In this document: piece by piece, positions 3,250 to 64,000 of the stretch
How positions within the stretch are numbered: position 1 is the stretch's first letter
Layout: every line of letters starts with the position of its first letter
DNA from: Thalassomonas haliotis
Lineage (GTDB): Bacteria > Pseudomonadota > Gammaproteobacteria > Enterobacterales > Alteromonadaceae
DNA: 64,000 nt
Assembly (NCBI RefSeq): GCF_028657945.1
Contig: NZ_CP059693.1
Span: 3,224,001 to 3,288,000 of the forward strand
Direction: 5' to 3'
The notes under the pieces: model-generated
Seen by the model: only the letters and a program-made list of their open reading frames with translations
Databases searched by the model: none
Told to the model about the DNA's origin: nothing
Position numbers and translations under genes: made by a program

Positions 3250-3369
3250 AAACGAGCATCCATATAAGTTTATATTTTAGCTGGCCACTACTTGCGGCTA
3301 GCCTGACATAATATGTTGAGTATGTTGTCACTCTTTTTTGTTTTTCAAACAATATGACAGCTTACCGAG

Positions 3370-3986: not shown

Positions 3987-4364
3987 ACCTCTGGTCCAGT
4001 AGCCTAATATATGAAAAGCTCGCTTTTCCCTGTCATATTTAAGCCGTATACCGATATTTTTAACTTGCTCACAAATAATAAATATATGGTGGCTTGCTGT
4101 TCCATCTCCTGCTTTATTATCACCTAAAACCACCTCTGTTTTGCAATTCGCGGAAAAGTTGCTTCTTAAACTTTTTAACTGCTCACCTAATGCCGCGCCA
4201 AGTCGAATGATGTTAGGGTGCTCAAGAGCTCCTTTTGAAAAAACGCTCTCCGATAAAGTTTCTTCTAAAAGGTAATAGCCAACTTTTTCAGCCAACAAGT
4301 CTTGCTCTTGATCATTTGAGCACGACATCAGCAAAGCTAAAAGGATGACTGTGATTAGTTTCAT
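3981..4364 (-). CDS. Small putative lipoprotein, cassette-like
   Basis: A 127-residue protein that starts with a lipoprotein signal peptide (MKLITVILLALLMSCSND; lipobox LMSC with Cys15). The mature part has a conserved-looking beta-rich end (SHHIFIICEQVKNIGIRLKY). No family is recognised. Its stop codon overlaps the attC-like site at 3906-3986, so the gene plus that site has the form of a single mobile integron cassette. The cellular place is probably the periplasmic face of a membrane. The role is unknown. Confidence 0.6.
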   Translation of the reverse strand: MKLITVILLALLMSCSNDQEQDLLAEKVGYYLLEETLSESVFSKGALEHPNIIRLGAALGEQLKSLRSNFSANCKTEVVLGDNKAGDGTASHHIFIICEQVKNIGIRLKYDREKRAFHILGYWTRGL

Positions 4365-4647
4365 ATAAGTCTACATAGGCTGTGGTTAGCCGAAAAACTT
4401 CGCACTTTCGCCAGAGACATTACCGGCTAAACTACTATTAAATGCCCTGATTTTATATTTTTATAACCCATCATCAATAAGTTAGCAATTTCCTATTTTA
4501 TAGCGACACGCTTGAAAGCGGCATTTTGTCAGGTTTACGCAGGAAGTACTGTTTTCTGATTTGTCCCTCATCGGCGGCATTGCCTGGCAGTGAAGGCGAA
4601 AACACCTGGACCAAGCTCCTGTCAGACCCATATCTGTTACCTATTTA

Positions 4648-4875
4648 TCAAAATACTTCGTCGTCACTATAAACATTAACGGCAAGTTCACCTTGAGCAT
4701 TTTCAGAAAGCAAAAAGTTTATCGGCTTGCAACATACCTGGCAGTCTTCAATATAATGCTGCTCCAGATCGGCAGAGTCGATTAACACGTCAATGGTTTC
4801 ACCACAGTAAGGACAATTTATAGATTGCTCAGTTAATTGATTCAATTTCTTCAACGCCCCCAGGCTTACCGACAA
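4648..4875 (-). CDS. CPXCG-motif cysteine-rich small protein
   Basis: About 75 residues with two Cys pairs, NCPYCGE and CQVCCKPI, spaced as in the small CPXCG zinc-ribbon family common in gammaproteobacteria. The acidic tail ends in SDDEVF. The family function is unknown and a structural zinc site is likely. The listed start is a TTG with no good ribosome site. The family usually begins close to the sequence NQLTEQSINCPYCG, so the true start may be a TTG about ten codons later. Confidence 0.75.
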   Translation of the reverse strand: MSVSLGALKKLNQLTEQSINCPYCGETIDVLIDSADLEQHYIEDCQVCCKPINFLLSENAQGELAVNVYSDDEVF

Positions 4876-5066
4876 AGATCACCGTCCATTAAGTACAAAG
4901 CTAATACGGGCAGACAATTTCCCCGAAAACGGTGCAACAGCTTTGCTCATTAATTTAGCACGATATTATGAAGATACCTTAATAAATACGGCTACCCCAC
5001 TGCCATTTGCCTCTGTTTTTATAGTCGCTGTAGAGAAACCCGCCCCAGCACTGCCCCTTCCCCATA

Positions 5067-5098
5067 GCTGAATACGTATTCATACATACGTATTCAGC
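5067..5098. promoter_or_regulatory. 13-bp inverted repeat upstream of the pullulanase operon
   Basis: GCTGAATACGTAT (5067-5079) and ATACGTATTCAGC (5086-5098) are perfect complements around a six-base spacer. No T-run follows, so a terminator is unlikely and a dimeric-regulator operator is more plausible. It lies about 145 bases before the PEP-CTERM gene, in an AT-rich gap (4876-5241) that otherwise shows no gene. The regulator is unknown. Confidence 0.45.
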
Positions 5099-5241
5099 AG
5101 CATAAATAGCTTTATCTGGCGTTTAATTAACAGACAACAAGGGCAATGCAGGCACTAAGACCTGTGGCAACAGTGTCATACACCAAACAAAAATAAACGA
5201 TCAATAAAAACAAAAAAACAAACAATAAAAATAAGGTAACT

Positions 5242-5919
5242 ATGATGAAAATAAGAGAATTTTTAGCCGTAGCATTCGTGCTGTTCGTTAATGCCAATGC
5301 GTATGGCGGCATCATTAACAATGGTGATTTCCAAAGCTGTGACTTTCAACATTGGCAAAAAGACACCGACGGCGGTGGCGACCCGGGGGCAACGGGAGAT
5401 TTCAGCATCAATAACAATGCCGGCGACTGTAGCGCAGCGATTAGTGTCGACCTTTTAGAGGGCGCCAGCGCATTTAGTGCCAATACCCTGTTCACCGCCT
5501 TAGATTTAACTGTCGCCAGTGGTGATTTACGGCTTAGTTTTGACTGGGATTTTTCCGGTCGTGATGACGGCAGTTTATTTGCCGATAATTTCTTTGTCAG
5601 CTTAGGCAATGGCACGGGAAATTTATTTAACGCCAACGGTGAACATGGTCACCTGATCGAAGCCACCAGCAGCTATGGCTCCGGCTCATTTTCGGTATTG
5701 CTGGACAGTAGCTTTTATAATCAAAGTGATTGGACATTGGATTTTTCCGTGCAAGGCGGCTGGAATGCCAACTCCTCTTTATCTTCCACGCTTAACATAA
5801 ACAATGTTTCATTAACCTCAGTAATGGCCTCAGTGCCTGAACCCGGCACGCTCATCATCTTGCTTATTGCTATAACGGGCTTAATGACCCAGCAACGCAT
5901 CAATGCCATTAGAGGGTAA
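5242..5919 (+). CDS. PEP-CTERM sorting-domain secreted protein
   Basis: A 225-residue protein with a signal peptide (about 1-22, ending in NANAYG) and a C-terminal PEP-CTERM tail: VPEPGTL, a hydrophobic span IILLIAITGLM, then a short basic end. Such tails are recognised and processed by an exosortase at the inner membrane, with the mature protein going to the surface or exopolysaccharide layer. The body is a beta-sandwich-like domain rich in Asn, Asp and Ser (GGIINNGDFQSCDFQHW opening), typical of carbohydrate-binding-like PEP-CTERM proteins. It ends five bases before the pullulanase start, so the two are very likely co-transcribed and may act together on glucans. No exosortase gene is in the window. 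Confidence 0.85.
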   Translation: MMKIREFLAVAFVLFVNANAYGGIINNGDFQSCDFQHWQKDTDGGGDPGATGDFSINNNAGDCSAAISVDLLEGASAFSANTLFTALDLTVASGDLRLSFDWDFSGRDDGSLFADNFFVSLGNGTGNLFNANGEHGHLIEATSSYGSGSFSVLLDSSFYNQSDWTLDFSVQGGWNANSSLSSTLNINNVSLTSVMASVPEPGTLIILLIAITGLMTQQRINAIRG

Positions 5920-5924
5920 CTGTC

Positions 5925-8900
5925 ATGAATCTTTATAAAAAAGCCAGACAGGTATTAATACAGCTACTGATGCCGCTAGTAATGCTGTTATTGATGTTAC
6001 TGAACCCTCCTTTGGTTCATGCCGCCTGGGAAACCACCGCAGAAACTCACTTTAATTATTCGCCCCGTCCGGTTTTTGACCGCATCAATAATCAATATTT
6101 ATCCATTGTGGCCATCACCAACCAGGGCAGTGAAAAATTAACCGGTCCGTTTCGCGTTTATATCCCCTCAAGCAGCCACCAGGTGCAAAACCTTGATGGA
6201 ACCGACGACGGCATCCCCTACATAAATTTGCCCATTGAAACTCTGGCCGCGGGTGACAGCCATCAATTTACTTTACAACTTGAGCTGAAGCGTGCGCTTA
6301 TTTCATTTGAATTAATCAATAAAGTCGAAGTGACGGATAACGCTACCGGGCTTGAATTAGCCGAGGATCAAATAGCGATTTTTTATCAGCGCCAAGACGG
6401 TAACTACGACGGCTGGGGCTTACACCTGTGGAACGGTGAAGGTTGCGGTAACTACGCGGCGCCAACCGTTAACAGCCCTCATTTTTCTCAATGGTCATCT
6501 CCATACCCTGTTGACGGTGTACACCCACAATATGGCGGCTATTATATTCTTAATGTAGAACCCGGTGCCGACTGTTATAACTTTATTATCCACCAAGGCA
6601 ACAACAAAGCGCTTGGGGCAAATAATAGCCGTTTTGAGCCGGTAAAAGCCATGCAGGGCCAACAGGCTTTTACCTTTCACGGTTATCCTGAAATATGGTA
6701 TCAGCCAATAACAACCCGCCCTGTTTTTCTTGATGGCGCACGCGCTCACTGGTTGGACACCGGCACTTTATTATGGTCAACCGATATCACCGATGCCGAC
6801 AGCTACCGCTTATATTATGCAAGCGATGCCGGTATCGACCTTATCAGCCAAGCGCTGCTCACCAACCTGCCCTACAAGTCACTTACCGCCACAGAAGCTA
6901 ACGCCAGCTACTATCAGCAAAACCCTCATTTAAGCGGCTTTACCGGCTTTAGCTTAGCAATCGATGATAGCCAGGCCAGGCAATTGGCCAAAAGTCAGCT
7001 GTTAGCCGTAGCATTAGATCAACAAGGCAACTTGCTCGATGCAACCCGGGTACAATTGCCACGCTTATTGGATTATTTGTACACCCGCAATAGCGCTGAT
7101 GCCGATGAAGCAAGCTTAGGGCTAAGTTATCAAGACCAGCAGGTGACAGCCTCGGTATGGGCACCTACCGCAGCACAAGTTGCGATAAAAATTTACAATG
7201 CCGCCAAACAAGAAACAGCCACTGAAGCAATGATACTTGACCAAGAGACCGGCATTTGGTCTTACAGCACAGCAAAAGCGGCGGTTGACCGTTTTTATTA
7301 TCGCTATCAGTTAACCGTGTTCCATCCGCTGACCAATAAAATTGAAACCTTAACCACTACAGATCCCTACTCGGTCGGCTTATCAACGAATGGCCGATAC
7401 AGCCAATTTGTTGATTTAAGCGATGACGACTTAAAACCACCAGGTTGGGATGACCATCTAGTGCCAACCGTGGCAAACGTTGAAGACAGCATTATTTATG
7501 AAGGTCATATTCGTGACTTTAGTATTCTCGACCAAAGTACCAGTGCAGCAAATCGCGGTAAGTATCTGGCTTTTACCGAAGCGAATAGTTTACCTATGCA
7601 GCATTTGCAGCAGCTACAAGCCGCAGGACTCACCCATTTTCATGTTTTACCGGCCAACGATATCGCCTCAATTGAAGAAGACACCGGCAAACGTGTTGAT
7701 GTAACCGATACCGTCGCAGACTTATGTCAATTAAACGCCGATGCACCGGTATGCGGTGTTGAAAGTCAAGATTCAGTATTGCTTGATGTATTAAAAAGTT
7801 ATGAGCCAAGTACCACTCAAGCACAGGCACTGGTAGAGTCAATGCGCCGTTTTGATGGCTTTAACTGGGGTTATGACCCGCAACACTTTGCCGCGCCTGA
7901 AGGCAGTTATGCCTCAAACCCTGACGGGGTTAGCCGCATTATCGAAATGCGCGCCATGAACCAGGCACTGCATGAAACAGGACTAAGGGTAGTACTGGAT
8001 GTGGTATATAACCATACCGCTTCATCCGGCTTATACGATAATGCGGTATTAGATAAAGTGGTGCCGGGTTACTACCATAGATTAAATGAAATCAGCGGTG
8101 CCATAGAAACCTCAACCTGCTGTGAAAATACCGCAACAGAGCACAGGATGATGGCTAAATTGATGAATGATTCGTTAGTTAGCTTTGCCAAACATTTTGG
8201 TTTTGACGGCTTCAGGTTTGACTTAATGGGACATATTCCCAAGCAGGCAATACTTGATGCACGCCAGGCGGTGTTGGCAATAGATAGCGACAGCTACTTT
8301 TATGGCGAAGGCTGGAATTTCGGCGAAGTGGCCGATAACCGCCGTTTTGAACAAGCCTCACAACTTAACATGGCCGGCAGCGAAATAGGCACCTACTCTG
8401 ACCGGCAGCGTGATGCCGTTCGCAGCGCCGCCTTATTTAATAACGGCGGCAGTTTAGGCGAGCAAGATGTACTGCGTATTGGTTTAGTGGGTAATATCGA
8501 CCGTTATCAGTTTGTTGCCGCCAGCGGTAATTACCTATCTGCTTATGATTATCAATGGAACGGCCAACCCGCAGGTTACAGCAGCGACCCTGCCGACACG
8601 GTTAATTATGTCTCTAAACATGACAATGAAACCTTATGGGATCAGCTGCAATATCATTTACCCGCGCAAATGAGCCTGGCCGATAAAGTACGCGTGCAAA
8701 ACATCGCCCTGTCTTTACCCCTGTTAAGCCAGGGGATCCCGTTTTTACAAATGGGAGCAGACTTAATTCGCTCAAAGTCAATGGACAGAAATACCTATGA
8801 TGCCGGTGACTGGTTTAACCGGGTCGATTTTACCCAAACCCAAAGCAACTGGAATATTGGCCTGCCCTTAGCCCAGGACAACCAAAGCAAATGGTCAATA

Positions 8901-10034
8901 ATCAGTGAGATCAGCGCCAATACCAACAATGCCTTTGGCGCAGAAGACATCAGCTTAACCAGCGCTTTATTCAAAGAATTTATCAATATCAGGGCAAGCA
9001 GTAAGTTGTTTAGATTAACCACGGCAGAGCAAATAACTAACCGCATTAAATTTCACAATGTCGGTACGCAGCAACAACAAGGTTTAGTGGTAATGAGCCT
9101 GGATGACGGCTTAGGCTTGCCCGACCTAGACTCGGTAAACGATGCCATTGTGGTGTTATTTAACGGCACCAGCAGCGAGCAGGCATTTAACATAACCAAC
9201 GCCGCTGGTTTTGAGCTGCATCAAAATCAACAAAACTCTGCGGACGCCAGAGTGCAAAGCGCCAGCTTTAGCAATGGCAACTTTGTTGTACCAGCACTGA
9301 CCACCGCCGTTTTTGTTAAACCGCAAGGGGAAGCTCAAGGCACCGGTTTGTCGGCATTACCCGCTTATGGCACCAATACGCTTTATTTACGCGGCGCTAT
9401 GAATAACTGGGATACTTCACTGCCCTTCACCTATATGGGTAATGACAAATACCGCTTGGCTGCTGATTTACAACAAGGTGAATATCAGTTCAAAATTGCC
9501 GACGTGAATTTTTCAAACGCCGATATTGGTGGCGGCTTTAATATGCCTGTTGCCCAAACGGTTAAGCTAACCAATGGCGGTGATAATTTAACACTAGAGT
9601 TAATTGCCGACGGTCAATACGTGTTTGAATTAGACGCCAGCGACGGACAAACGCCAGGCTTGTTGATTACACCCGACGATCCCTCAGCAATACCGGCACC
9701 TTATGGTGAAACCCTTATCTACTTGCGCGGGTTAATGAATGACTGGGGCACCAATCGAGCATTAACCTATCAAGGTGACGGCATTTATAGCGGCAGTTAT
9801 CAAATCAGTGAAGGTCAACACGCGTTAAAAATTGCTGATGCCGATTGGGGAGGAACAGGTGGCCCTAATTTGGGCGGTGCTCACAGTATAGCGTTAGGCG
9901 CAAGTATTGAGTTAACAGCAAATTCTAATGACAATATTTCATTAACGCTTAGTGACTCACAGCTATTGTTTTTTGTGCTGGATGCCAATGATATCAATAA
10001 GCCAGTATTAACGGTAAGTGAAATAATAGAATAG
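5925..10034 (+). CDS. pulA: Secreted pullulanase-type alpha-1,6-glucosidase (GH13)
   Basis: A 1369-residue secreted debranching enzyme that cuts alpha-1,6 links of pullulan, starch or glycogen. In order there is a signal peptide (about 1-33); an Ig/CARDB-like domain; a CBM41-like pullulanase domain (YDGWGLHLWNG, about residue 158); a CBM48-like domain (VTASVWAPTAAQVAIKIYNA, about 407); the GH13 barrel; and two C-terminal repeats opening LYLRGAMNNWD and IYLRGLMNDWG. All GH13 regions are present: VVLDVVYNHT (about 688), GFRFDLMGH with nucleophile Asp766, GEGWNFG with acid/base Glu795, and YVSKHDNE with Asp900. The two C-terminal repeats look like starch-binding beta domains. The gene follows the PEP-CTERM gene by five bases. 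Its 3' end abuts the integron array. Confidence 0.95.
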   Translation: MNLYKKARQVLIQLLMPLVMLLLMLLNPPLVHAAWETTAETHFNYSPRPVFDRINNQYLSIVAITNQGSEKLTGPFRVYIPSSSHQVQNLDGTDDGIPYINLPIETLAAGDSHQFTLQLELKRALISFELINKVEVTDNATGLELAEDQIAIFYQRQDGNYDGWGLHLWNGEGCGNYAAPTVNSPHFSQWSSPYPVDGVHPQYGGYYILNVEPGADCYNFIIHQGNNKALGANNSRFEPVKAMQGQQAFTFHGYPEIWYQPITTRPVFLDGARAHWLDTGTLLWSTDITDADSYRLYYASDAGIDLISQALLTNLPYKSLTATEANASYYQQNPHLSGFTGFSLAIDDSQARQLAKSQLLAVALDQQGNLLDATRVQLPRLLDYLYTRNSADADEASLGLSYQDQQVTASVWAPTAAQVAIKIYNAAKQETATEAMILDQETGIWSYSTAKAAVDRFYYRYQLTVFHPLTNKIETLTTTDPYSVGLSTNGRYSQFVDLSDDDLKPPGWDDHLVPTVANVEDSIIYEGHIRDFSILDQSTSAANRGKYLAFTEANSLPMQHLQQLQAAGLTHFHVLPANDIASIEEDTGKRVDVTDTVADLCQLNADAPVCGVESQDSVLLDVLKSYEPSTTQAQALVESMRRFDGFNWGYDPQHFAAPEGSYASNPDGVSRIIEMRAMNQALHETGLRVVLDVVYNHTASSGLYDNAVLDKVVPGYYHRLNEISGAIETSTCCENTATEHRMMAKLMNDSLVSFAKHFGFDGFRFDLMGHIPKQAILDARQAVLAIDSDSYFYGEGWNFGEVADNRRFEQASQLNMAGSEIGTYSDRQRDAVRSAALFNNGGSLGEQDVLRIGLVGNIDRYQFVAASGNYLSAYDYQWNGQPAGYSSDPADTVNYVSKHDNETLWDQLQYHLPAQMSLADKVRVQNIALSLPLLSQGIPFLQMGADLIRSKSMDRNTYDAGDWFNRVDFTQTQSNWNIGLPLAQDNQSKWSIISEISANTNNAFGAEDISLTSALFKEFINIRASSKLFRLTTAEQITNRIKFHNVGTQQQQGLVVMSLDDGLGLPDLDSVNDAIVVLFNGTSSEQAFNITNAAGFELHQNQQNSADARVQSASFSNGNFVVPALTTAVFVKPQGEAQGTGLSALPAYGTNTLYLRGAMNNWDTSLPFTYMGNDKYRLAADLQQGEYQFKIADVNFSNADIGGGFNMPVAQTVKLTNGGDNLTLELIADGQYVFELDASDGQTPGLLITPDDPSAIPAPYGETLIYLRGLMNDWGTNRALTYQGDGIYSGSYQISEGQHALKIADADWGGTGGPNLGGAHSIALGASIELTANSNDNISLTLSDSQLLFFVLDANDINKPVLTVSEIIE

Positions 10035-10120
10035 GTATTAGGGCGTGGCACACCGCTATTAAAATTTGCTGTTAGCAGTTAATTTTTTTAGTGGTGGTCC
10101 ACCTCAGGCGTTTGTTAGGC
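10035..10120 (-). repeat. attC site, terminal site of the cassette array
   Basis: A hairpin-forming site ending in a perfect GTTAGGC core at 10114-10120. Arms GTGGCACACCGCTA (about 10045) and TAGTGGTGGTCCAC (about 10089) pair with few mismatches, separated by AT-rich sequence. The outer core next to the pullulanase stop (GGTATTAG) is degenerate, as expected for the last site of an array. It overlaps the stop codon of the 10115-10744 gene. Confidence 0.75.
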
Positions 10121-10744
10121 TTTTTCTTTCGCCAAACGGATAGCTTCTTGCAATGGTACAAGTAAATCAGATACTTTAGTTTCTGAATTACTGTCTCTGA
10201 CGCCATCAACTAAATCGGCAGAATACCCCTTCATAAAAAGTGGTGGGAGATGAGCAGCTTCCCTTTGAAAGCTAAAAACACACACGCCCTGCATAGTAGA
10301 TTTAACTTCATCCTTATCACAAGTATATGTGTAAGTGAGAACTCCATCAGGTTCATTTATGTGTGTAGCTTTAGATAACCATTGAGCATAAGACTCGCCG
10401 TTTTCTCTAAAAGCCTCACCGCGAATAACTAAATAGTTCAATGTCTGATCAAAGTACTCTACTGTAAAAATCGTTTCATTATTTGAATTGGTAAATTTAC
10501 CAACCCATGTTCCATTAACAAAACTAGCCCCCAAGAAGTGTTTTTTTAGCCACAACCAATTACGAGTAATTGCCAGTAGAATTTTTGCAAAAATATTATA
10601 AATACCAACCGCAGATATAAAAGCAGCAACCGGCTTCGCGATATCATAGCCATTTATTAATGGGGCTACTCTTTGAATCATAAAGTACATAACCATTACC
10701 GTAAAAACGGTAACATACGAGTGAAACTTATGTTCAGACTGCAT
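10115..10744 (-). CDS. Cassette protein: two membrane spans plus beta-rich domain, possibly Cap15-like
   Basis: A 209-residue protein with two N-terminal membrane segments (about 8-30 and 38-62) followed by a beta-rich soluble domain that opens NGTWVGKF and continues through FTVEYFDQTLNYLVIRGEAF and LTYTYTCDKDE. This order resembles the 2TM/beta-strand effector family called Cap15 in CBASS anti-phage systems, where the barrel binds a cyclic nucleotide and the spans disrupt the inner membrane. The resemblance is by eye only, and no CD-NTase gene lies near it. The start has a GGAGGT ribosome site. The stop lies in the attC at 10035-10120 and a GCCTAAC core follows its 5' end at 10759, so it is a complete cassette. 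Confidence 0.6.
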   Translation of the reverse strand: MQSEHKFHSYVTVFTVMVMYFMIQRVAPLINGYDIAKPVAAFISAVGIYNIFAKILLAITRNWLWLKKHFLGASFVNGTWVGKFTNSNNETIFTVEYFDQTLNYLVIRGEAFRENGESYAQWLSKATHINEPDGVLTYTYTCDKDEVKSTMQGVCVFSFQREAAHLPPLFMKGYSADLVDGVRDSNSETKVSDLLVPLQEAIRLAKEKA

Positions 10745-35560: not shown

Positions 35561-37501
35561 CTAAGGCAATTCAGCCACCAAACGGATGGAGGTGGTTAAT
35601 TCTTCCAGCTGGAAATGCGGCCTGAGGAAGACCACTGCCCGGTAACTGCCCGGCTTGCCCGGCACGTCGGTGACATCGATACGCGAGTCCCGAAGCGGAT
35701 AACTGGCTTTCATTTCCTGGGGGGCGGAGTCGTCCACCAGCACATAATTGCCTATCCAGTTATTGAGATAGTCGGAGGCGTTTTCCTTGGTCTGGAAGCT
35801 GCCGATCTTATCGCGCATGATCACCTTGATGTAATGGGCAAAACGCGAGGCATTAAGCACATAAGGCAACATGGTTGAGATCCTGGCATTGGCATTGGCG
35901 GCATCGGTATTGTATTTTTGCGGCAAACCTGTGGTCTGGCCGCCGAAAAATGCCGCCTTGTCGCTGCCCTTACAATGTAAAATCGCCATAAAACCTAAGT
36001 CATTAAGCTCTTTTTCCCGCCGGTCTGTGATAGAAACCTGGGTCGGACAGGTGAGCTTGACATCCCCCGCTGCGGTTTTAAAGGTATGGGTGGGTAAACC
36101 TTCCACCAAACCGCCGCCTTCTACGCCGCGAATTGCCGCCAGCCAGCCGTGCAGGGAAAAGGCATTGGTGATGCGCTGCCCGAGAATATAGGCCGGATTG
36201 CCCCACAAATATTTTTTCGCATCTGTGCCGTCAACATCTTCGACATAATCAAAGCCTTCCGCCGCCACGGTCTCCGGGCCGTAAGGCAGACGCAGCAGTA
36301 CTTTGGGCAAGGTTAAGGTAACATAGCGGGAGTCTTCGCTTTCGCGGAAACTGCGCCATTTGATCAATTCGGCACTGTCGAAAATCTTGGTCAGATCCCT
36401 GGGCTGGGACAGGCTGAAGAAGTCTTCCATATCGAACAGTTTTGAATAGGCGGAGGAAATAAAGGGCGCATGCGCCGAAGCGGCGACACCGGAAATTTTC
36501 TCCAGCAGCTCGACATCCGCCGGGTGACGGCCAAACTCATAATCTCCCACCAAAAAGCTGAAGGGATCGCCGCCGTAAGTGCCAAACTCTTCTTCATAGA
36601 CTTTCTTAAACAGGGAGCTTTGATCGAACTCCACCGCTTTTTGCAGATCTTTTAACAAGTCTTCCTTGGAGACATTAAACAGCCTGAGTTTGAGGTGGCT
36701 GCCGGTTTCGGTATTCATCACCAAAAAGTGCAGGCCGCGCCAGGTCGCTTCCAGGGTCTGGAAGGCGCTGTCATGCATCACCAGGTTGATTTGTTGGGTT
36801 AACTGGTTGTCGATAAGCGAGATGCGATCACTCATGCGGTCTGAGGCGATAGGTGCAGCATTCTCCCCGGCATCTTTTAATATCGATAAGGCAAATTCAC
36901 CAATTAATTCCAGGGCATAAGGCTTCTGGCTGTCATCAAGCGCCATACGTCCTTCGGTGAGCATACGGGTGATCAGTTCATTGGGCTCCACCGCAGACAT
37001 ATCTTCTGCGCCTTCGTAAACGCCGATAAGTTCCGTTTGCTTGGCTTCATCGGCGAGGATCTCGTCGAGTATGCCGTCTAAGGGATCATTACCGTCGAGT
37101 TTCGCCATAAAATCCCGGATACGGCAGCGTGAGGTATAAACGGTATTGGTTATCGGGATCTGCTTGACCAGGCTCAGCGGGCTGAAATCTTCGATACTGT
37201 TAAACAGTAACTCCAGATTGGTGGTCGCCCCCTCTTCTCCTGAAATTGCATCGGCGACGGAATAGGCTAAACGGACTTGTGAGCCGGCCATCACATCGTC
37301 AAAGTTGTCACGGTCGATAAACACAAAAGCCCGCTCTTTGATCGGGGGTAACGCCTCTTTAGGCTTACCTGACAGATCTGCAAGAATACCGACAATCAAA
37401 GGCAACTCACGTTGCACTATGGCATCACCGATTTCAACATCATAGGTGATATGTACCCTTGGCGATCTGACCCTGGATAATTTTTTCTGAATACTTTCCA
37501 A
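35561..37501 (-). CDS. tssBC: Fused type VI sheath protein TssB-TssC
   Basis: A single 646-residue chain that joins both sheath subunits. Residues 1-155 are a whole TssB: KLSRVRSPRVHITYDVEIGD, ELPLIVGILADLSGKP, then FNSIEDFSPLSLVKQIP and RDFMAKLDGND. After a linker of about 70 residues comes TssC: FQTLEATWRGLHFLVMNTE (about 250), FSFLVGDYEFGRHPADVELL, SSAYSKLFDMEDFFSLSQP and RSFRESEDSRYVTLTLPKVL, ending in RPHFQLEELTTSIRLVAELP. No stop or frameshift separates the parts. The start is a TTG at 37501, six bases after GGAG; another TTG four codons upstream lacks a site. In other T6SSs these are two proteins. The N-terminal helix of TssC, which ClpV grasps in known systems, is not free here. Confidence 0.93.
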   Translation of the reverse strand: MESIQKKLSRVRSPRVHITYDVEIGDAIVQRELPLIVGILADLSGKPKEALPPIKERAFVFIDRDNFDDVMAGSQVRLAYSVADAISGEEGATTNLELLFNSIEDFSPLSLVKQIPITNTVYTSRCRIRDFMAKLDGNDPLDGILDEILADEAKQTELIGVYEGAEDMSAVEPNELITRMLTEGRMALDDSQKPYALELIGEFALSILKDAGENAAPIASDRMSDRISLIDNQLTQQINLVMHDSAFQTLEATWRGLHFLVMNTETGSHLKLRLFNVSKEDLLKDLQKAVEFDQSSLFKKVYEEEFGTYGGDPFSFLVGDYEFGRHPADVELLEKISGVAASAHAPFISSAYSKLFDMEDFFSLSQPRDLTKIFDSAELIKWRSFRESEDSRYVTLTLPKVLLRLPYGPETVAAEGFDYVEDVDGTDAKKYLWGNPAYILGQRITNAFSLHGWLAAIRGVEGGGLVEGLPTHTFKTAAGDVKLTCPTQVSITDRREKELNDLGFMAILHCKGSDKAAFFGGQTTGLPQKYNTDAANANARISTMLPYVLNASRFAHYIKVIMRDKIGSFQTKENASDYLNNWIGNYVLVDDSAPQEMKASYPLRDSRIDVTDVPGKPGSYRAVVFLRPHFQLEELTTSIRLVAELP

Positions 37502-37547
37502 AATTAGCTCCAAATCACAATTTATTTAATGCCAATAACAAAAACAC

Positions 37548-47284: not shown

Positions 47285-49927
47285 TTAAAAGTTTTCCCGC
47301 GAAGCAGACATAAAGCGCTTATGGTAAAGCTTATGTCCTTCATCCACGACAATTAATATGGTAGCAATCAACAGCAGCATAGACCATTGCTCCAGGGTAA
47401 CCGGCGACAGCGCCAGCCAGTCCCTCAAACCCGGGGTATACATGGCGCCGATATGTACTCCCTGGGCGGTAAGCATGCCAAAGAGCAGGAATTTATTGCC
47501 CCAAAAGTACTGCCGGAAAATAGACAAGTGCTCAGAGCGGCTGTTGAGTACATGCACGTTTTCAAATAACACCATCAGCAACAGGGTCAGGTTGCGGGCC
47601 TGATCTTCGGCAACACCGGCATCAAGCTGCCACTTGAAAAAAGTAAAGGCCAGGGTGCCCATCACCAGGGCATTGATCAGCACCCGCTCTATCATCAGCG
47701 GATTGAAAATCGCTTCATCGGGCGGGCGCGCCTGCTGCCTGAGCTCATTGCCTTCGGCCGGCTCAAATGCCAGCGCCACATCCTGGATGCCGTTGGTGAC
47801 CAGGTTAAGCCATAATAACTGCAGCGGAAATAACGGCAGCGGCGTGGAAAAAAGCAGGGAAAACAGCACCAGTAAAATTTCCGCCGCCCCGGTGGAGATC
47901 AATAAAAAGATCACTTTACGGATATTGTTATAAACGATCCTGCCCTGGCGGATCCCCTGTACTATGGAGGCAAAATTATCGTCGGTGAGGATAATATCGG
48001 CGCTTTGTCTGGCGACATCCGTGCCGCGCAATCCCATGGCAATGCCGACATGGGCCTGGGTCAGCGCCGGTGCGTCATTCACACCGTCGCCGGTCACGGC
48101 AACAAAATCGCCGTCATGCATCAGCTGATCGATAATTTGCTTTTTTTGATGGGGAGACACCCGGGCAAAAACATTACTGCCATGGATACATAAGCTAAAA
48201 CGGGCTCTGCCCTGCTGATAAGCCTGCGTTAACTGCTCACCGGTAACCGCCTGCATTTGCTGATCGGCAATGCCCGACTCCCGGGCCAGGGCTAGCGCGG
48301 TGTCGGGGTGATCGCCGGTGATCATGGCGACATTGATATCGGCCCGCTTGCATTCGGACACGGCCGCGGGCACTTCCGGACGCAGGGGATCTATCATAGC
48401 CACCAGGCCGATAAAGGTTAAGTCATGCAGTAGCGGCTCCAGCTTGCCGTCAATGCTGTCCACTAAGGTATAAGCCAGTCCCAGCACCCGCTGCCCCCTG
48501 GTTGCCATGGTCTTGGCCGCTGCACTTACCCCGGCCAATGCCGGATCCGGGGCACACATGGTCAGCAGTTTTTCGACACTGCCTTTGACAAAGAGATAGT
48601 TTTTGCCGCGGTAAAGGTTCACACTGGCACAATAGGCATTTTCCGACTCATAGGGGATTTGTCCCAGTTCGGGACAAGCTTTACGGCTCTGTTGGTAATC
48701 CGTGCCGTATTTGAGGCCGAGCAGTAAAAAGGCAACATCCACCATATCCCCCTGCCCGCTCCAGCCATCACCCGATGGCGCCAGGTAGGCTTCATTTGCC
48801 AAAAGGCCCGCCATCACCAGCAACTCTAGCCGGCTAACTTCACCGTTATGGTCAACAGCGCTTATTTCCCCTTCCGGGTTGAGTCCCTGACCGCTCACCC
48901 GGTAAAAGCCGCCGCCGCTGAGGTAAATATCTTTTATCGTCATTTCATTAACCGTCAGGGTACCGGTTTTATCTGAGGCAATATAGGTACATGAACCTAA
49001 GGCCTCCACCGCCAGCAGGTTACGGATGATCACTTTAACCTTGGCCATTCGGCGCATGCCGATGGCCAGCGCCACGGTAATGGCGGCCGGCAGCCCTTCG
49101 GGAATGGCCGATACCGCCAGCGCCACCGCCAGCAGGAAGACGCTGCCAAGGTCGTCACCGCGGATCAGGGTGATCATAAAGATCAATGCGATTAATATCA
49201 GGATCCCGTAGGTGATCCTCAAGGTAAAGGTTTCAATACGCAATAATAACGGCGGTTTGGTTTGCCCCTGTCCGACATCCGAGGCTATTTTTCCTATCTC
49301 GGTATCTTCCCCGGTTGCAATAACATGCCCCAGCCCCCGTCCGCGCATCACCACAGTACCGGCATAACAAAACCGGTGCCGGTTTTCGGTATCAACAGCG
49401 GCTTTTTGCTGACCGGCTCCAGGCTGAGCGCTGCGCTGACTGAAAGACTTTTCTACCGCCACCGACTCCCCGGTGATCATCGACTCGTCCACCTGCAGCT
49501 CATCATGGCTGCACAAACAGATATCCGCCGGAATTTTATCTCCCGACACCAGCTTCACCAGATCCCCCACCACAAGATCGGCACTGTTGATCTTCACCAC
49601 TTTATGGTCCCGCACCACATAGGCGTAAGACGGCACCATTTTTTTCAGGGCATTGGCGGCTTTCTCGGCGGAAAATTCCTGTATGGTGCCGATCAGGGCA
49701 TTAAGCAGCAATACGGCAAAAATAAAATAGCCATTAATGTGCTGTCCGAGGAAAAAAGACACTAAGGCGGCGGCAAACAATACATAAATAAAGGGGCTGA
49801 TAAATTGCCGCAGGAAAATATTGAACAGGCTCGGCGGTTTGGCTTCGGGTAAAGTATTACTGCCGTAATTGGCCAGGCGCTGCCCGGCCTCGACAGCCGT
49901 TAAGTGTGTAGGAAAAGCAGTAGACAT
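47285..49927 (-). CDS. P-type cation-transporting ATPase (P2-type)
   Basis: An 880-residue inner-membrane pump. It contains the dephosphorylation motif MITGESVAV, the phosphorylated Asp319 in SDKTGTLT, the KGSVEKLL nucleotide-binding loop, the hinge motif VAVTGDGVNDAPALTQAHVG, and about ten membrane spans including the C-terminal set with WLNLVTNGIQDVALAFEP. This is the P2A/P2B-like group of bacterial Ca2+ or Na+/K+-type pumps. The ion is not certain. Expected length for the group is 850-950 residues. Confidence 0.9.
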   Translation of the reverse strand: MSTAFPTHLTAVEAGQRLANYGSNTLPEAKPPSLFNIFLRQFISPFIYVLFAAALVSFFLGQHINGYFIFAVLLLNALIGTIQEFSAEKAANALKKMVPSYAYVVRDHKVVKINSADLVVGDLVKLVSGDKIPADICLCSHDELQVDESMITGESVAVEKSFSQRSAQPGAGQQKAAVDTENRHRFCYAGTVVMRGRGLGHVIATGEDTEIGKIASDVGQGQTKPPLLLRIETFTLRITYGILILIALIFMITLIRGDDLGSVFLLAVALAVSAIPEGLPAAITVALAIGMRRMAKVKVIIRNLLAVEALGSCTYIASDKTGTLTVNEMTIKDIYLSGGGFYRVSGQGLNPEGEISAVDHNGEVSRLELLVMAGLLANEAYLAPSGDGWSGQGDMVDVAFLLLGLKYGTDYQQSRKACPELGQIPYESENAYCASVNLYRGKNYLFVKGSVEKLLTMCAPDPALAGVSAAAKTMATRGQRVLGLAYTLVDSIDGKLEPLLHDLTFIGLVAMIDPLRPEVPAAVSECKRADINVAMITGDHPDTALALARESGIADQQMQAVTGEQLTQAYQQGRARFSLCIHGSNVFARVSPHQKKQIIDQLMHDGDFVAVTGDGVNDAPALTQAHVGIAMGLRGTDVARQSADIILTDDNFASIVQGIRQGRIVYNNIRKVIFLLISTGAAEILLVLFSLLFSTPLPLFPLQLLWLNLVTNGIQDVALAFEPAEGNELRQQARPPDEAIFNPLMIERVLINALVMGTLAFTFFKWQLDAGVAEDQARNLTLLLMVLFENVHVLNSRSEHLSIFRQYFWGNKFLLFGMLTAQGVHIGAMYTPGLRDWLALSPVTLEQWSMLLLIATILIVVDEGHKLYHKRFMSASRENF

Positions 49928-58992: not shown

Positions 58993-59979
58993 TTACACGT
59001 GACTGCTGACAATTTCACTGTTGGTCTGGTGTCTGGCATCATTGATGGCCTTAAGCATGTTCATGGCATCATTAATGATCTGTTTGGAGTCCCTGAAGTA
59101 CTGGTTTTGATCTTCGGCTTTTGAGTTGTGCAAACCCGACTCGGTTTCCGCACGTTTTTGCTCTTCCTGATCTTCTGTTGACCAGAAAGTAATACCCGCC
59201 CCGGTTGCACCGGCAGTCCCTTCTAAAATCTTACCGGCAGCCGTATATTTCGCTGTCGTTGCCTGGGCCTGGGCTTCTGTCATTTTCGGACCTGATTTGC
59301 TTGCTGCGCTGGAAGAATTACTCGCCGTTGAAGCCGTTGATGAACCTTCACTGACCCCTTCGGCTAAGCCGTTAGAGGTTTTTACCGAACCGGTTGAAGT
59401 ATTGCCGGTAGTATTGGTTGGTGTCGGCGCTTTTGGCGCGGCTGCCGCACCGGCAGAAGGTGTACTTAAGCCCTTAAGGGTTTTAATACCGCCGGCCATG
59501 GAAAGCGCACCACTGACTATGGTTACGGCATTCGTGATCATGCCCACCATAAAGTCTTTTGCGGCTTTATCGCGCATGGCAGTGATCGCCTCTTCACTTT
59601 TTGCCACCATCATTTCACGGTCGCCGTTTCGCATTTCCCGGTTAACATCGCGCTGTTCCCGCACCGTTTCCAAGAATAATTTCATGATCTCATTAAAATC
59701 AGCCATGAAATCACGGCCAACCACCCGGTCCACCTCTTCGCCGCTGCCAGCCGTTACTTTAGGTGCGGCCAGCTGAGGCACGTCATGGATGGTTAAAACC
59801 CCCTTGTCGGTTTGCACCACCAGGTCATCATCCACCAATTGTATGTTTTGAACCGTGCCGATATCTTTGCCTTGAACTCCTGTTGTCGTTGCACTGCCGT
59901 CGCTCGGGGTAAAGCTTACCTGGTAATCACTGTTTAAATAATCTGTTACTTGCTGGTTTGGTGTTACTGTAGCCATCAT
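58993..59979 (-). CDS. sctB: Type III translocon protein, SctB (EspB/YopD-like)
   Basis: A 328-residue protein with one central hydrophobic segment (about 143-166, MITNAVTIVSGALSMAGGIK), a charged coiled-coil before it (EIMKLFLETVREQRDVNREM) and a Ser/Thr/Ala-rich linker. This is the layout of the smaller pore protein EspB/YopD/SseD, which forms the hole in the host membrane with the larger translocator. It follows the SctE-like gene by about 60 bases. The family name is inferred from architecture and gene order. Confidence 0.7.
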   Translation of the reverse strand: MMATVTPNQQVTDYLNSDYQVSFTPSDGSATTTGVQGKDIGTVQNIQLVDDDLVVQTDKGVLTIHDVPQLAAPKVTAGSGEEVDRVVGRDFMADFNEIMKLFLETVREQRDVNREMRNGDREMMVAKSEEAITAMRDKAAKDFMVGMITNAVTIVSGALSMAGGIKTLKGLSTPSAGAAAAPKAPTPTNTTGNTSTGSVKTSNGLAEGVSEGSSTASTASNSSSAASKSGPKMTEAQAQATTAKYTAAGKILEGTAGATGAGITFWSTEDQEEQKRAETESGLHNSKAEDQNQYFRDSKQIINDAMNMLKAINDARHQTNSEIVSSHV

Positions 59980-60042: not shown

Positions 60043-61038
60043 TTAAACCGCACTGTTACTCATAATGGTGTTGTTCAGCTCTGTACTGGCCGTGAGTTTT
60101 TCCATGGCAATTTTGATGCCCTGGGCATACTGCTGCATGATTTCTTCCAACTTGTCCTGGTAATCGCCAAGTTTCATCATCAGTTCACTGATAAATTTTT
60201 GCTGATCGGCGGCATCGGCGCGGGCATCGGCCGCTTCTTTGGTATAAGCTGTGGTTGCCATGCCTGCAGCCCCTTGTCCCATAGTCGCTGCGCCGCCGAC
60301 AATACCGCTAACCGCAGCCACTTTTGCCGCCATAATGGCAAACGTGCCCGCCGCCGCCGGCCCCATCATGGCAGCACCACCCGAGGCAAGCGAAAGCACC
60401 ATAACAGTTGCCAGTACCGTGATTTGCGCCGCCATCATGGCATCTTCTTTACTCATGTTAGGGTCAATTGCCATAAAGACTTCGGCAAGGCCTTCATTCA
60501 TCCAGTCACCGGTTTCCCCCGAAATTTGCGAGGTCAGCATTACCGCACCGGCTGCTATCATCAAGCCGCCGGCAACTGCGCCGACACCTGTGGCAATTAA
60601 CGCCGCCCCGGCTACGATCATCGCCGCACTGGCGATCCAGCCAAATGCCTTGCCGATACCGCTGCTTTCTTTGGCTTTTTCTATCGCCTCAAGCGCTTCT
60701 TCAATTTTTTTGATGCGTTCTTCATGGTGCATCTGGGTGGTCTGCTGGTTGTTCTTAATGTCTTCTTTGGCATTAACCGCCTGCTCTTCGGTTACTTCCT
60801 GGTTTAGGGAGGTGAGCAACAACATAAGGTCGTTCATGCTCATGTCCCCGAGTTCCGGCGGAACCAAGCCCGGGACATTATTTTGCCCCTGCGCAGCTAC
60901 CGGATTGCCCTGGGCATCGGTAACCATGGTCATATTCTGCTGCCCGCCCTTGTTTGAGCGGTTAACCACAGCAGTGTCAGTGTTATTAGTGGTGGGGGTC
61001 GTCGTAGTCGATTGTGGTGTTACTGTTACATCACTCAT
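60043..61038 (-). CDS. sctE: Type III translocon protein, SctE (EspD/YopB-like)
   Basis: A 331-residue protein with two long hydrophobic regions (about 132-165 and 205-255) rich in Gly/Ala, flanked by a charged coiled-coil (HHEERIKKIEEALEAIEKAK) and a C-terminal amphipathic helix (LGDYQDKLEEIMQQYAQGIK). This is typical of the large translocator family. The motif SGETGDWMNEGLAEVF between the two hydrophobic parts is a family-like feature of YopB/EspD/SseC. An AAGGAG site precedes the ATG. It follows its LcrH-type chaperone by 11 bases. Confidence 0.8.
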   Translation of the reverse strand: MSDVTVTPQSTTTTPTTNNTDTAVVNRSNKGGQQNMTMVTDAQGNPVAAQGQNNVPGLVPPELGDMSMNDLMLLLTSLNQEVTEEQAVNAKEDIKNNQQTTQMHHEERIKKIEEALEAIEKAKESSGIGKAFGWIASAAMIVAGAALIATGVGAVAGGLMIAAGAVMLTSQISGETGDWMNEGLAEVFMAIDPNMSKEDAMMAAQITVLATVMVLSLASGGAAMMGPAAAGTFAIMAAKVAAVSGIVGGAATMGQGAAGMATTAYTKEAADARADAADQQKFISELMMKLGDYQDKLEEIMQQYAQGIKIAMEKLTASTELNNTIMSNSAV

Positions 61039-61049
61039 AATCTTACTCC

Positions 61050-61538
61050 TTAAGATAATTTATTTTTTATTACCGCCAACATCTTGGTGGCTTTGTCTTT
61101 CACTTCATAAAAACCGGCCTGGTTATCGGCAAACTCCAGTGCCGCGGTAAAGCCGCTGGCCGCTTTTTCAAAGTCTCCCAACGCCAGGTAGCATTCGGCG
61201 GCATGCAACGGCGGTGTCGGATCTTTAATATCGAGCAAGGCAGCCATTGAATAAGAGTTAATGGCGTCTTTGTATTGCTGCAACATTTGCTGGCAGCTGC
61301 CGATGCCCATTAAATATTTCTTTTCCAGGTGATCAAACAATCCCAGAAATTTAAAGACTTTGAGTGCATCTTCATATTTGCTGTTTTGATAAAGGTTGTA
61401 GGCCACGTAATAAATGGCTTCCATAGTGTTTTCATCTAAACTTTTCAGCTCGCGTAAAGCGCCGCCTTTACCGATGAAATCAAATATTTGTTCGCCTAAT
61501 GCCAGGTCGTGTTCAATTTTTTCTTGTGTTAAATTCAT
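61050..61538 (-). CDS. LcrH/SycD-family translocator chaperone
   Basis: 162 residues from the ATG at 61538 (CAGGAG site); a start seven codons earlier is possible. It has tetratricopeptide repeats (IYYVAYNLYQNSKYEDALKV, YLMGIGSCQQMLQQYKDAIN, PLHAAECYLALGDFEKAASG), as in SycD, LcrH, IpgC and CesD. These class II chaperones hold the hydrophobic translocators in the cytoplasm until export. Its place just before sctE fits. Confidence 0.88.
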   Translation of the reverse strand: MNLTQEKIEHDLALGEQIFDFIGKGGALRELKSLDENTMEAIYYVAYNLYQNSKYEDALKVFKFLGLFDHLEKKYLMGIGSCQQMLQQYKDAINSYSMAALLDIKDPTPPLHAAECYLALGDFEKAASGFTAALEFADNQAGFYEVKDKATKMLAVIKNKLS

Positions 61539-61699
61539 GATGACTCCTGCTGTTTCCATTGCTGTTCGTTGAGTCTCAGGCCCCCGGCAATTGCCTTATC
61601 TGCTTTGATATCAAGCGATAGCAAGCGCATATCGCCGGGAAACAGACCTGATAAAAAATAAAGGTGCACAAATACCGCTGAAAAATTGTGCACGCTGGG

Positions 61700-62191
61700 T
61701 TAAATACGGGTATTGCCGATAATGGAGTCTTTTTCCCCGTGAGAAGTACTTAAGAAGTTGGTTTGCTGCTTAATCACTTCATCGTACTTATTCATAATCG
61801 CCTGCAAATCGATCAGATCTGTTTGCGAGGTGCTGGTTAAGCTATCGATTTCCGTTTGCATATTTTCGATAACCGCCGTCCATTCATCCTTGTTGTAGCT
61901 GGTATCGTCATAACCATCGGGGACGCTGACGTCGTTTGCCTTAAGAAAAGCCGTCATCTCGGCAGACATATCTGTGGTTTTGTCTTTCGCCTGCTCTGTT
62001 CTTGCCTGCTGTAAATAACCGTTAAATTCCTTTAGCAGGGCATTCTTGTCGGAGATCAATTTTGCCTGCTCGCGAATTTGATCATCAAGAATTTCTGAAC
62101 GTCCGCTTAACGCTTTCATCATTACCGTTTCCAGGGATAATTTAGTCTCAACCGTCCCTAAGGTATTGTTGCCGCTTACTGAAGTAGCCAT
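61700..62191 (-). CDS. sctA: EspA-like type III filament protein, short form
   Basis: A 163-residue protein with N-terminal and C-terminal helices of coiled-coil type. N-terminal: LSLETVMMKALSGRSEILDD; C-terminal: TDLIDLQAIMNKYDEVIKQQ, ending in SIIGNTRI. The layout and length agree with EspA/SseB filament proteins. Its two ends are closely similar to those of the larger neighbour at 62609-63871. The middle part (ANDVSVPDGYDDTSYNKDEW) is a short loop. Confidence 0.75.
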   Translation of the reverse strand: MATSVSGNNTLGTVETKLSLETVMMKALSGRSEILDDQIREQAKLISDKNALLKEFNGYLQQARTEQAKDKTTDMSAEMTAFLKANDVSVPDGYDDTSYNKDEWTAVIENMQTEIDSLTSTSQTDLIDLQAIMNKYDEVIKQQTNFLSTSHGEKDSIIGNTRI

Positions 62192-62265: not shown

Positions 62266-62571
62266 TCAGATAAAAGCACGGGGCCGGGATTTTTTCGCCG
62301 CACGCACCGGCATGTCCCGGTACTTGGCCCGGTCGCGGGCATCGCGTTGAGCCTGGGCAATTTCATCCCGAAAAGCCTCCGATTTTTTTTCCAATTGTTC
62401 CTTTTCATGGGCCGTTAAGTCTGAAGTGTCCGACAACATCGCCTTGGTAATACCATAGCGTTGATACAGATCTTCTTTTTGTTTCAGCAGCCCACGGGCT
62501 TGTGCCAGGGTGTCTTTACTTTCCTTAAGGAAAGCTTCCAGTGCGGTTTGTTTAGACATTTCATTTGCCAT
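62266..62571 (-). CDS. Small coiled-coil protein, probable filament chaperone
   Basis: A 101-residue highly charged helical protein (LEAFLKESKDTLAQARGLLK, QLEKKSEAFRDEIAQAQRDA) with a basic C-terminus (RAAKKSRPRAFI). It lies between the two EspA-like genes. In E. coli CesA/CesAB and in Salmonella SseA are small helical chaperones of such filament subunits, so this role is inferred from position and form. No family signature is visible. Confidence 0.6.
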   Translation of the reverse strand: MANEMSKQTALEAFLKESKDTLAQARGLLKQKEDLYQRYGITKAMLSDTSDLTAHEKEQLEKKSEAFRDEIAQAQRDARDRAKYRDMPVRAAKKSRPRAFI

Positions 62572-62608: not shown

Positions 62609-63871
62609 TTAAATACGGGTGTTGCCGATAACTGAGTCATTTTCACTGTGTGCCGTGCTCAGCATGTTGGTTTGCTGTTTGACGTTTTCATCGTATTTAT
62701 TCATTAACGACTGCAAGGCAATCAACTCGGTTTGCGAGCGGCTGGTGAGGCTGTCAACATAATCAGAAGACATTTGCGACAGGTTTTCTTTCTCTGCCGG
62801 GGTAAAGACCAGGGCATTACCATATTGCAAGGTTGAAATATCTGCGCCCATATCTTTTAACAAGGCAATATTTTCAGGGGTTGCTTCTATGGTGAATAGG
62901 CTTTCCATCGCGGTTGTTACCGAAGCCATTTCGGTTGAGGTTAATACCAGGGCGCCACCTTCGGTGTAATCCGCCGGATCCAGGCCTGCTTTGGTGAGCA
63001 TTTCCCTGTTTTTATCCGTCAGCGGTAAGGTGGTGATCTCTTCGGTGACTTCGCTTTGGGCCACTTTGCCGCTTGAAATGTCATCGCCGTTCAACGCAGC
63101 CCAGTCGCTCATGTCGCCATTGGTGGTAACAAAAATGGTGCCGTCGTTTTTAGTGGCATCGTCAAACAGGCTGCCGTCGCTGGCTACATCCAGGGTATCA
63201 TCACTCTGGCCGCCGCCGTTTGCGTTATCCGACAAGCCGGTTACTACCGCTTGGTCATCGCCGCGTGAGATATAAAGGTTGTCGGTTACCGTAGCACCAC
63301 CATTGCCGTAAGGAGCCGTTTCAACAGTGATCTTGACGCCGGTCGGGGTAACAAAGGTAGACTGTTCGTTAAAATCGAAATCTGTAGAGCCGTCAGCGCC
63401 TTCATCAACATGCGGATCGCCCCAGACTCGGGTTGAGTTGGTAAAAGTAGGATCCGCACCTTCACCTCTTTGCTCTGACGGATCATACTCAACCATTTTC
63501 CAGGAGCGGTTATCGCCGGATCTTTCAACCACTACCCCGGTGCCGTCACCAAAGTCGATAAAATCATCGCCATTGGCTAATTTTGAACTGGTGAAGTCCG
63601 GGTAATCGGCATCGGAGAAGTCATCCATTTCCCCGACCGTTAATCCCGCGTTATTGGCGCCGAGATTGGTTAACTGAGATAATCTGTTGGCATCAACAAT
63701 TTTTTGGTTGGCCGCTTCAATGCTGGCAGCCTGCTCACGGACACCATCATCCAGGATAGTATCGCGCTCACCTAGTACACGCATCACTAAAGATATTGTT
63801 GCTTCACGGCTCATGTGCGCACTGCTTGTTGCTTCTGTTCCTGCTGCACCTGCCACTGGTTGATTATGCAT
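62609..63871 (-). CDS. EspA-like filament protein with inserted DUF1521 self-cleaving domain
   Basis: 420 residues from the ATG at 63871 (GGAG seven bases before). The ends match the short EspA-like protein: N-terminal ATISLVMRVLGERDTILDDG, C-terminal SQTELIALQSLMNKYDENVK to SVIGNTRI. Between them, at about 100-255, sits a DUF1521 domain: GDPHVD (151-156), DGSTDFDFNEQSTFVTPTG, VKITVETAPYGNGG and LYISRGDDQAVVTGLSDN. In Bradyrhizobium NopE1 this domain cuts itself between Asp and Pro of GDPHVD when calcium is present. Here that would be D152-P153. Two repeats of about 40 residues (from EMLTKAGLDPADYTEGGALV and ALLKDMGADISTLQYGNALV) follow. Acidic residues after the motif probably bind the metal. 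Confidence 0.88.
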   Translation of the reverse strand: MHNQPVAGAAGTEATSSAHMSREATISLVMRVLGERDTILDDGVREQAASIEAANQKIVDANRLSQLTNLGANNAGLTVGEMDDFSDADYPDFTSSKLANGDDFIDFGDGTGVVVERSGDNRSWKMVEYDPSEQRGEGADPTFTNSTRVWGDPHVDEGADGSTDFDFNEQSTFVTPTGVKITVETAPYGNGGATVTDNLYISRGDDQAVVTGLSDNANGGGQSDDTLDVASDGSLFDDATKNDGTIFVTTNGDMSDWAALNGDDISSGKVAQSEVTEEITTLPLTDKNREMLTKAGLDPADYTEGGALVLTSTEMASVTTAMESLFTIEATPENIALLKDMGADISTLQYGNALVFTPAEKENLSQMSSDYVDSLTSRSQTELIALQSLMNKYDENVKQQTNMLSTAHSENDSVIGNTRI

Positions 63872-64000
63872 ATCCATTCTCCATTTCATTCTTATTAAAA
63901 AGTTTGCCCGATACCTTCTCATCAGGCGGTCATAAACTTTGTAACCAATAAAAAAAAATGGTTGTAAACTTGTTGCGATTTTTACCTTAAAAAAACAGGA
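63872..64000. other. Right edge, upstream region of the filament gene
   Basis: About 130 AT-rich bases up to the window edge. It holds the start region of the T3SS operon or continues into the next gene off the edge. No feature can be supported. Confidence 0.3.

Follow-up and report, generated by a model that had tools for sequence, protein, structure and literature searches.

In Thalassomonas haliotis, a protein of 420 residues encoded beside a type III secretion (T3SS) gene cluster holds a DUF1521/MIIA module between two ends that it has in common with a shorter neighbour. Tentatively, and at slightly less than an even chance, we take it for a second, accessory component in a needle extension of the EspA/Bsp22 kind, which would leave the cell whole and be cut outside at Asp152-Pro153. 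The module itself is already known; its place between filament-type ends appears to be new. Here there would be two versions of the outer building block of a needle, the larger of which may let external calcium change the needle; if true, the medium would remodel the surface of a secretion needle once the parts had been exported. The features are collected in Table 1; the window is the whole stretch of 64,000 nucleotides that was analysed.

Table 1. The long gene, the parts of its protein and the accompanying gene run, in window positions.
Feature	Position	Strand	Residues or size	Evidence or remark
Long protein (CDS)	62609..63871	-	420 aa, 44.6 kDa, pI 4.05	ends common to the short protein, DUF1521/MIIA module in the middle; no Cys
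N-terminal end	63647..63871	-	aa 1-75	helix common with the short protein; BLASTP 14/36, E 4e-5
MIIA (DUF1521) module	63047..63646	-	aa 76-275	PF07481 and alignments; includes the conserved stretch upstream of GDPH
PF07481 match proper			aa 145-274	E 9.7e-20
GDPH	63410..63421	-	aa 151-154	predicted cut D152/P153
Linker	62762..63046	-	aa 276-370	alignment; by eye, one segment present twice in diverged form
C-terminal end	62612..62758	-	aa 372-420	73% identity to the short protein over 49 aa
Btc22-like filament chaperone candidate	62266..62571	-	101 aa	NCBIfam Btc22 E 0.0048, 17.3 bits (cut-off 100)
Short filament-type protein	61700..62191	-	163 aa	BLASTP to the long protein, hhalign to Vibrionaceae EspA
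SycD/LcrH translocator chaperone	61050..61559	-		TIGR02552 E 9.2e-43, above cut-off
SctE-type translocator (SseC family)	60043..61038	-		PF04888 E 7.6e-17, above cut-off
SctB-type translocator	58993..59979	-		NF038055 E 4.7e-8, 32.8 bits (cut-off 37)

The open reading frame of the long gene lies where the sequence-only reading had drawn it. Its likely start is the ATG at 63871, seven bases downstream of a GGAG at 63879-63882; since other in-frame starts exist further upstream, the assignment is likely rather than proven. As had been noticed from the letters, the middle of the protein holds GDPHVD (residues 151-156) followed by DFDF (164-167). In alignments helix 1 precedes the module; a short segment and the C-terminal helix follow it, both of which are present in the short protein (helices of both proteins were judged from sequence). 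The predicted cut site falls between the two end helices, where the earlier reading had put it. The placement is cleanest in the pairwise alignment of the Vibrionaceae genome G614, described below; in the other simple pairwise alignments the middle of the short protein is scattered across the module.

The predicted cut would give pieces of 152 and 268 residues, of about 16.3 and 28.4 kDa. Two fates had been suggested for them. Release of a fragment fits poorly, because each half of the module is left joined to one filament-type end. That the pieces stay together fits better, although there is no cysteine to hold them.

From the long gene onwards the run reads chaperone candidate, short protein, SycD, SctE, SctB. 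The chaperone homologue at an Acidobacteriota locus (L017, 11077-11388) matches Btc22 more strongly than the candidate of the window, at E 1.5e-8 and 35 bits, against the same cut-off of 100. Beyond the end of the window lie SctL, SctJ, SctI and SctD, each above a cut-off, and further ORFs that resemble, by eye, SctC, V, W, N, Q, R, S, T and U. A separate needle gene, SctF, is also found there (48.4 bits, cut-off 29.4), which makes the short protein an improbable candidate for the needle itself. The arrangement is that of the Bsp22/EspA kind: a gene beside the SycD and translocator genes and a chaperone candidate, the latter below its cut-off, and apart from the needle gene. Elsewhere in the window, the T6SS sheath ORF at 35561-37513 fits the models of the large and of the small subunit alike. 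For a P-type ATPase at 47285-49927 the best models are calcium types, below their cut-offs.

Both ends of the long protein match the short one, as had been claimed: by BLASTP, 36 of 49 residues are identical at the C-terminal end (E 6e-22) and 14 of 36 at the N-terminal end (E 4e-5). A 49-residue match at this level, together with a DUF1521 match at 1e-19, leaves little room for chance.

The description of these ends as EspA-like is less secure, being supported by gene order and remote profile similarity and not by the curated cut-offs. No Pfam or NCBIfam filament model matches either of the two filament-type proteins of the window above its cut-off, and EspA (PF03433) has no match at this locus in the genome even at E 1, a threshold at which the model matches in 4 of 14 control genomes, in none of them over its cut-off. 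The best EspA score in a relative is 16.8 bits against a cut-off of 23.4, for a Photobacterium long protein. Compared by hhalign with a shallow EspA set of seven sequences, drawn from 7 of 9 Vibrionaceae loci with full-length EspA, the short family reaches 72% (E 3.3e-5, 120 columns) and the long family 87% (E 3.7e-6, 94 columns); these are shallow alignments, with E-values per single comparison. Four other families of the run, used as controls, gave 0.1-20.8%, SctE being the highest (E 0.0011). Single-protein and PDB searches with relatives gave weak matches to EspA (0.0062), SctI (0.00015), needle protein (0.0085) and PrgI (0.019), and equally weak ones to unrelated families, such as a double-cubane reductase (8.8e-5) and PHB_acc (0.0029); in the PDB search keratin (0.0065) ranks above PrgI. 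We therefore call the two proteins remotely EspA/Bsp22-like, by position and profile similarity, and do not assign them to PF03433, as they stay below the curated cut-offs and unrelated families match at similar levels. Another short/long pair occurs in Vibrionaceae (L107, L117-L120, L123), where EspA of about 190 residues adjoins an EspA paralogue of 263 residues.

The DUF1521 profile search proposed earlier gave a match well above the curated cut-off (71.7 bits, cut-off 23.6). It is the sole DUF1521 match in the 6.45-Mb genome at E 0.001, and PF07481 is the only Pfam family that the module matches at E 1. Among 87 modules, near-invariant columns were taken as those 85% or more alike; the window keeps 18 of these 21, GDPH included, and departs, like its three congeners, at T111, T175 and V179, where Y, L and T are near-invariant. 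Since the rows were chosen by GDPH, this motif is universal in the set by construction. When 59 relatives and 329 Vibrionaceae were scanned with PF07481 alone, with no GDPH seed, it was found in 12 of 14 matches and in 9 of 9 filament forms. In the remaining two matches SDPY stands in its place, so GDPH can be lost elsewhere. Both come from one genome (G528: L098, 1387-2430, and L099, 994-1983), whose third copy (L103) has GDPH; the SDPY proteins are possibly non-cutting paralogues. By analogy with the cleaving members of the family, GDPH and the 18 columns kept make Ca2+-triggered cleavage of the window module plausible. Across the four Thalassomonas the long gene has a pN of 0.04-0.10, far lower than its pS of 0.36-0.65, some pairs being near saturation; this speaks for the accessory-subunit reading.

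The pair of long and short genes recurs in 13 genomes, which belong to Pseudomonadota and Acidobacteriota, and at 15 loci in all. Chaperone, SycD and SctE accompany it at all 15 and SctB at 14 (L084 has no SctB match), and the six genes are complete at 14 of the 15. The chaperone gene stands between the long and short genes at every locus except L019, where it precedes the long gene. Profiles were built from six of the pair loci, and the other nine are in no profile. A scan of one genome per species, with two seeds, one of which contains GDPH, kept the best 80 of 132 relatives; 11 of these loci have the pair (L011-L019, L065, L084). At the other 69, some on contigs of only a few kb, the profiles for short protein, chaperone, SctE and SctB find nothing. 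Further pair loci are the window itself (L006), L007, L008 and L100; L009 is the same as L012, and L010 as L011. Two loci each belong to Acanthopleuribacter pedis and to a Holophagae MAG; the hosts with one locus are four Thalassomonas, Algicola sagamiensis, three Photobacterium, one further Vibrionaceae genome (G492), the gammaproteobacterium 45_16_T64 and Sulfidibacter corallicola. For Sulfidibacter, Acanthopleuribacter and Algicola the phylum was looked up. Among named records that have this locus, Thalassomonas sp. RHCl1 (L012) is the nearest.

PF07481 is found in 5 of 59 relatives, among them the genome itself and all three congeners, in 1 of 369 genomes drawn from the class, which is again the genome itself, and in 7 of 329 Vibrionaceae. 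Of the last, G424, G425 and G492 have the present run and G614 a different one. On plasmids only the DUF1521 part of Bradyrhizobium and Bosea proteins was matched, and no match was confirmed among viral contigs.

In G614 (L101) an SseB-like pair repeats the design. Its short protein (2808-3374, 188 residues) is weakly SseB-like (NCBIfam E 1e-4, 22.3 bits against 155); its long one, an ORF of 373 residues at 8868-9989, has DUF1521 (E 3.8e-23) between ends that resemble the short protein. The two C-terminal ends are 96% identical, and a SycD-like gene follows each of the two genes. The long C-terminal end is 15-36% identical to those of the other long proteins, and hhalign finds no link between the short protein and the family of the window (0.6 and 4.7%). 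The module may have been inserted twice, or the two families may be old sisters.

How the two genes of a pair came to have common ends was addressed with trees of the ends from 11 of 16 pairs, the five left out being near-copies and the distant G614 pair; several end branches are long. A single old duplication followed by separate paths should bring the long proteins together as one clade, and this is rejected by the ends (AU p 1e-4, 11 pairs; C-terminal end p 7e-7, N-terminal end p 0.017), so a duplication without later exchange was discarded. The ends group by lineage, not by long or short type: two Acidobacteriota sets, Thalassomonas, 45_16_T64 and others. Within one lineage, long and short proteins separate into groups of their own, and the ends thus track the lineage rather than each single locus. 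The short protein of the same locus is not always the nearest at the C-terminal end: for Holo2 identity is 45% to its own and 47% to that of Acan2, and own and other short proteins compare as 73 and 75% for VibG492, 75 and 77% for Thal0, 79 and 81% for both Thal2 and ThalR, and 71 and 70% for Sulf.

A single origin of the 16 filament-form modules is not rejected, at p 0.25 in a quick tree of 87 rows and at p 0.41 in an earlier MIIA tree of 97 rows. The smaller set omits nine rows with chance GDPH (L024_a, L033_a, L051_a, L052_a, L056_a, L059_a, L060_a, L070_a, L071_a) and one odd row (L026_a). Read jointly, end and module trees would mean that ends were swapped between the two genes within lineages, or that the module was repeatedly fused to the local short gene; either course suggests that the ends must fit a local partner or the chaperone.

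The module also diverges as a unit. Between two Thalassomonas genomes, G002 and G003, the module block (residues 81-300 in the long gene) has 128 differing bases among 659, and the remainder of the six genes 144 among 3915; the Fisher p of 5e-41 shows only that the block is real, since bases inside it are not independent. Between L008 (7670-8935) and L009 (8507-9766) the same block is about 81% identical and the rest of the gene run 87-100% per 90-base window. Identity drops to 77% as well in one intergenic window (L009, from 8281) that lies upstream of the long gene, so the module is not the sole variable stretch. Synonymous differences per site between G002 and G003 are 0 in the chaperone, 0.04 in the short gene and 0.14-0.25 in SycD, SctE and SctB; along the long gene, the outer windows have 0-0.27 and the 30-codon windows between residues 91 and 300 have 0.44-0.74 each. 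Either the module or its surroundings were therefore exchanged.

The accessory subunit that we propose would work as follows. The two ends of the long protein would act like those of the short subunit, binding a common chaperone in the cytoplasm and, after export, packing with it into one helical filament or at the filament tip. With Ca2+ low in the cytoplasm, the module would be neither folded nor cut on export, a state that would suit passage through a narrow channel. The genus Thalassomonas is marine, and seawater holds about 10 mM Ca2+. Outside the cell this ion would fold the module, which, to judge from VIC_001052 and NopE1, would then cut itself between Asp152 and Pro153. The nicked module would remain displayed on the filament surface, held by the two ends, and the benefit of the cut, by analogy with the cleaved VWD domain, may be a folded, protease-resistant surface. 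Here the module occurs in a protein of a likely assembly kind with a sister that lacks it, which poses a direct question: does Ca2+ change a filament? We know of no self-cleaving module in the Bsp22/EspA needle extensions. Among the titles and abstract openings of the literature matches listed, none places a DUF1521 module in a filament protein, and the paper on VIC_001052 (PMC6506597) contains no word that starts with EspA, filament or needle.

The foremost rival, which we rate as rather unlikely, makes the long protein an injected effector or a free secreted protein of the NopE/VIC_001052 kind, with borrowed ends that serve chaperone binding and export only and an action that follows cleavage in the host or the medium. 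NopE1 and NopE2 are described as secreted by T3SS and VIC_001052 as probably so, all of them self-cleaving (PMC6506597), and NopE is described as an effector (PMC8367979). The Bradyrhizobium NopE proteins have the DUF1521 module in common with the window, and Ca2+-dependent self-cleavage is reported for NopE (PMC6506597). In all 12 plasmid records (11 Bradyrhizobium, 1 Bosea) the best alignment is confined to residues 147-274 of the window protein. VIC_001052, of Vibrio coralliilyticus, shares with the window both the module and a T3SS gene cluster, and its cut was measured: the domain, largely disordered without Ca2+, binds two of these ions, with a Kd of high nanomolar to low micromolar, folds and cuts itself between Asp and Pro, after the Asp of GDPH; D116A inhibits the cleavage and Mg2+ is inactive (PMC6506597).

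From its length of 370 residues and from D116, W172 and W223, we equate with VIC_001052 the MIIA protein of another genome (G566; L102, 8664-9776). Unlike the window protein, it has the module without filament-type ends, by which the design described here would be new as a variant of a known module; the effector reading gains from the same protein, and from its adjoining an HrpA-pilin-like gene (9830-10144; PF09589 27.2 bits, cut-off 25). None of the profiles for short protein, chaperone, SycD, SctE and SctB finds a match in the 19-kb locus. The common ends could reflect chaperone and export alone, as sharing a chaperone might suffice to keep them alike; yet both ends are kept to their last residues at the 15 pair loci, which seems to go beyond what an N-terminal signal and a chaperone site would need.

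It is improbable, in our estimate, that the long protein is instead a tip or cap protein that starts the polymerisation of the short subunit or stops it, Ca2+ cleavage then leading to uncapping or to hand-over to the translocon. Ends in common with the short subunit and a bulky insert would suit such a role, and so would the place of the long gene at the head of the run. In Bordetella the order is bsp22-btc22-bcrH1-bopD-bopB, where Bsp22, whose chaperone is Btc22, polymerises at the needle tip as the tip filament (PMC7498569). The window resembles this order, which also speaks for the accessory-subunit reading: the long gene takes the bsp22 position ahead of the chaperone, and the short gene comes behind the chaperone. 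In both the order of genes and the type of chaperone the window is like Bsp22/Btc22 and EspA of enteropathogenic E. coli, and to Vibrionaceae EspA the proteins have the remote similarity, below the Pfam cut-off, given above. None of the sequence features seen, however, distinguishes a cap from a minor subunit.

Poorer still are the prospects of a functionless cut, with the module as a changeable decoration of the surface, under selection for antigenic or receptor diversity, and self-cleavage left over as a relic: block-wise divergence inside an otherwise similar operon, the three near-invariant positions changed in Thalassomonas and the SDPY matches would agree with it, but GDPH is kept in all nine filament forms found without a GDPH seed.

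A bolder variant of the accessory-subunit proposal is to our minds a long shot. The minor subunit would cut itself in seawater Ca2+, and its transient aspartic anhydride would covalently join the filament to a neighbour or to a host surface. The T3SS extension would then be armed by the change of ions at the cell surface, with a subunit whose ends match those of the major one and whose middle is exchanged as a block, and by an Asp-Pro chemistry that resembles what VWD modules of mucins and FrpC modules do. If true, it would be, to our knowledge, the first self-processing subunit of an injection filament; we know of no linking to Lys after the cut in MIIA modules. The FrpC module undergoes Ca2+-dependent Asp-Pro self-cleavage like that predicted for the window, and linking to Lys is reported for FrpC, a type I secreted RTX clip-and-link protein (PMC7078468, PMC7846742).

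A further lead might connect bacterial GDPH modules with animal VWD domains. The VWD domains of FCGBP and MUC2, which self-cleave between Asp and Pro (PMC10880436), have GDPH followed by DG..(W/F)DF, as does the window protein. In FCGBP the cleaved halves are held by disulfides, unlike those of the cysteine-free window protein. The cleaved FCGBP domain is more resistant to proteases, and its authors know of no revealed function for GDPH cleavage (PMC10880436). Run against the PDB, a profile built from 47 modules recovers FCGBP at E 2.1e-19 summed over repeats, the best single stretch having 0.0099, and meets three bacterial VWD loci at E 0.027, 0.16 and 9.2; with GDPH masked it finds none of the three at E 10. 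VWD (PF00094) is not among the 25 of 28 families listed for the 47 modules, and the genome of the window has no VWD match at E 1e-4. With bacterial VWD loci missed by the masked profile and Pfam giving PF07481 alone, kinship with VWD was not adopted and is kept as a lead.

Other DUF1521 proteins also occur near T3SS genes. One of Myxococcus (L059, 9545-10684) adjoins an SctV-like ORF (7328-9451, by eye) and lies near SycD-like TPR genes, at a locus where the profiles for short protein, chaperone, SctE and SctB give nothing; this is possibly a T3SS without a needle. Three Acidobacteriota long proteins (L016, L017, L018) have, by eye, an EF-hand-like DxDGDG loop in the linker, with none seen in their short partners, and weak Pfam EF-hand matches occur in some, unspecified, members of the long-protein alignment. 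In another T3SS (L031), a DUF1521 protein of 601 residues (3940-5745) is encoded between ORFs that resemble SctI and SctJ by eye.
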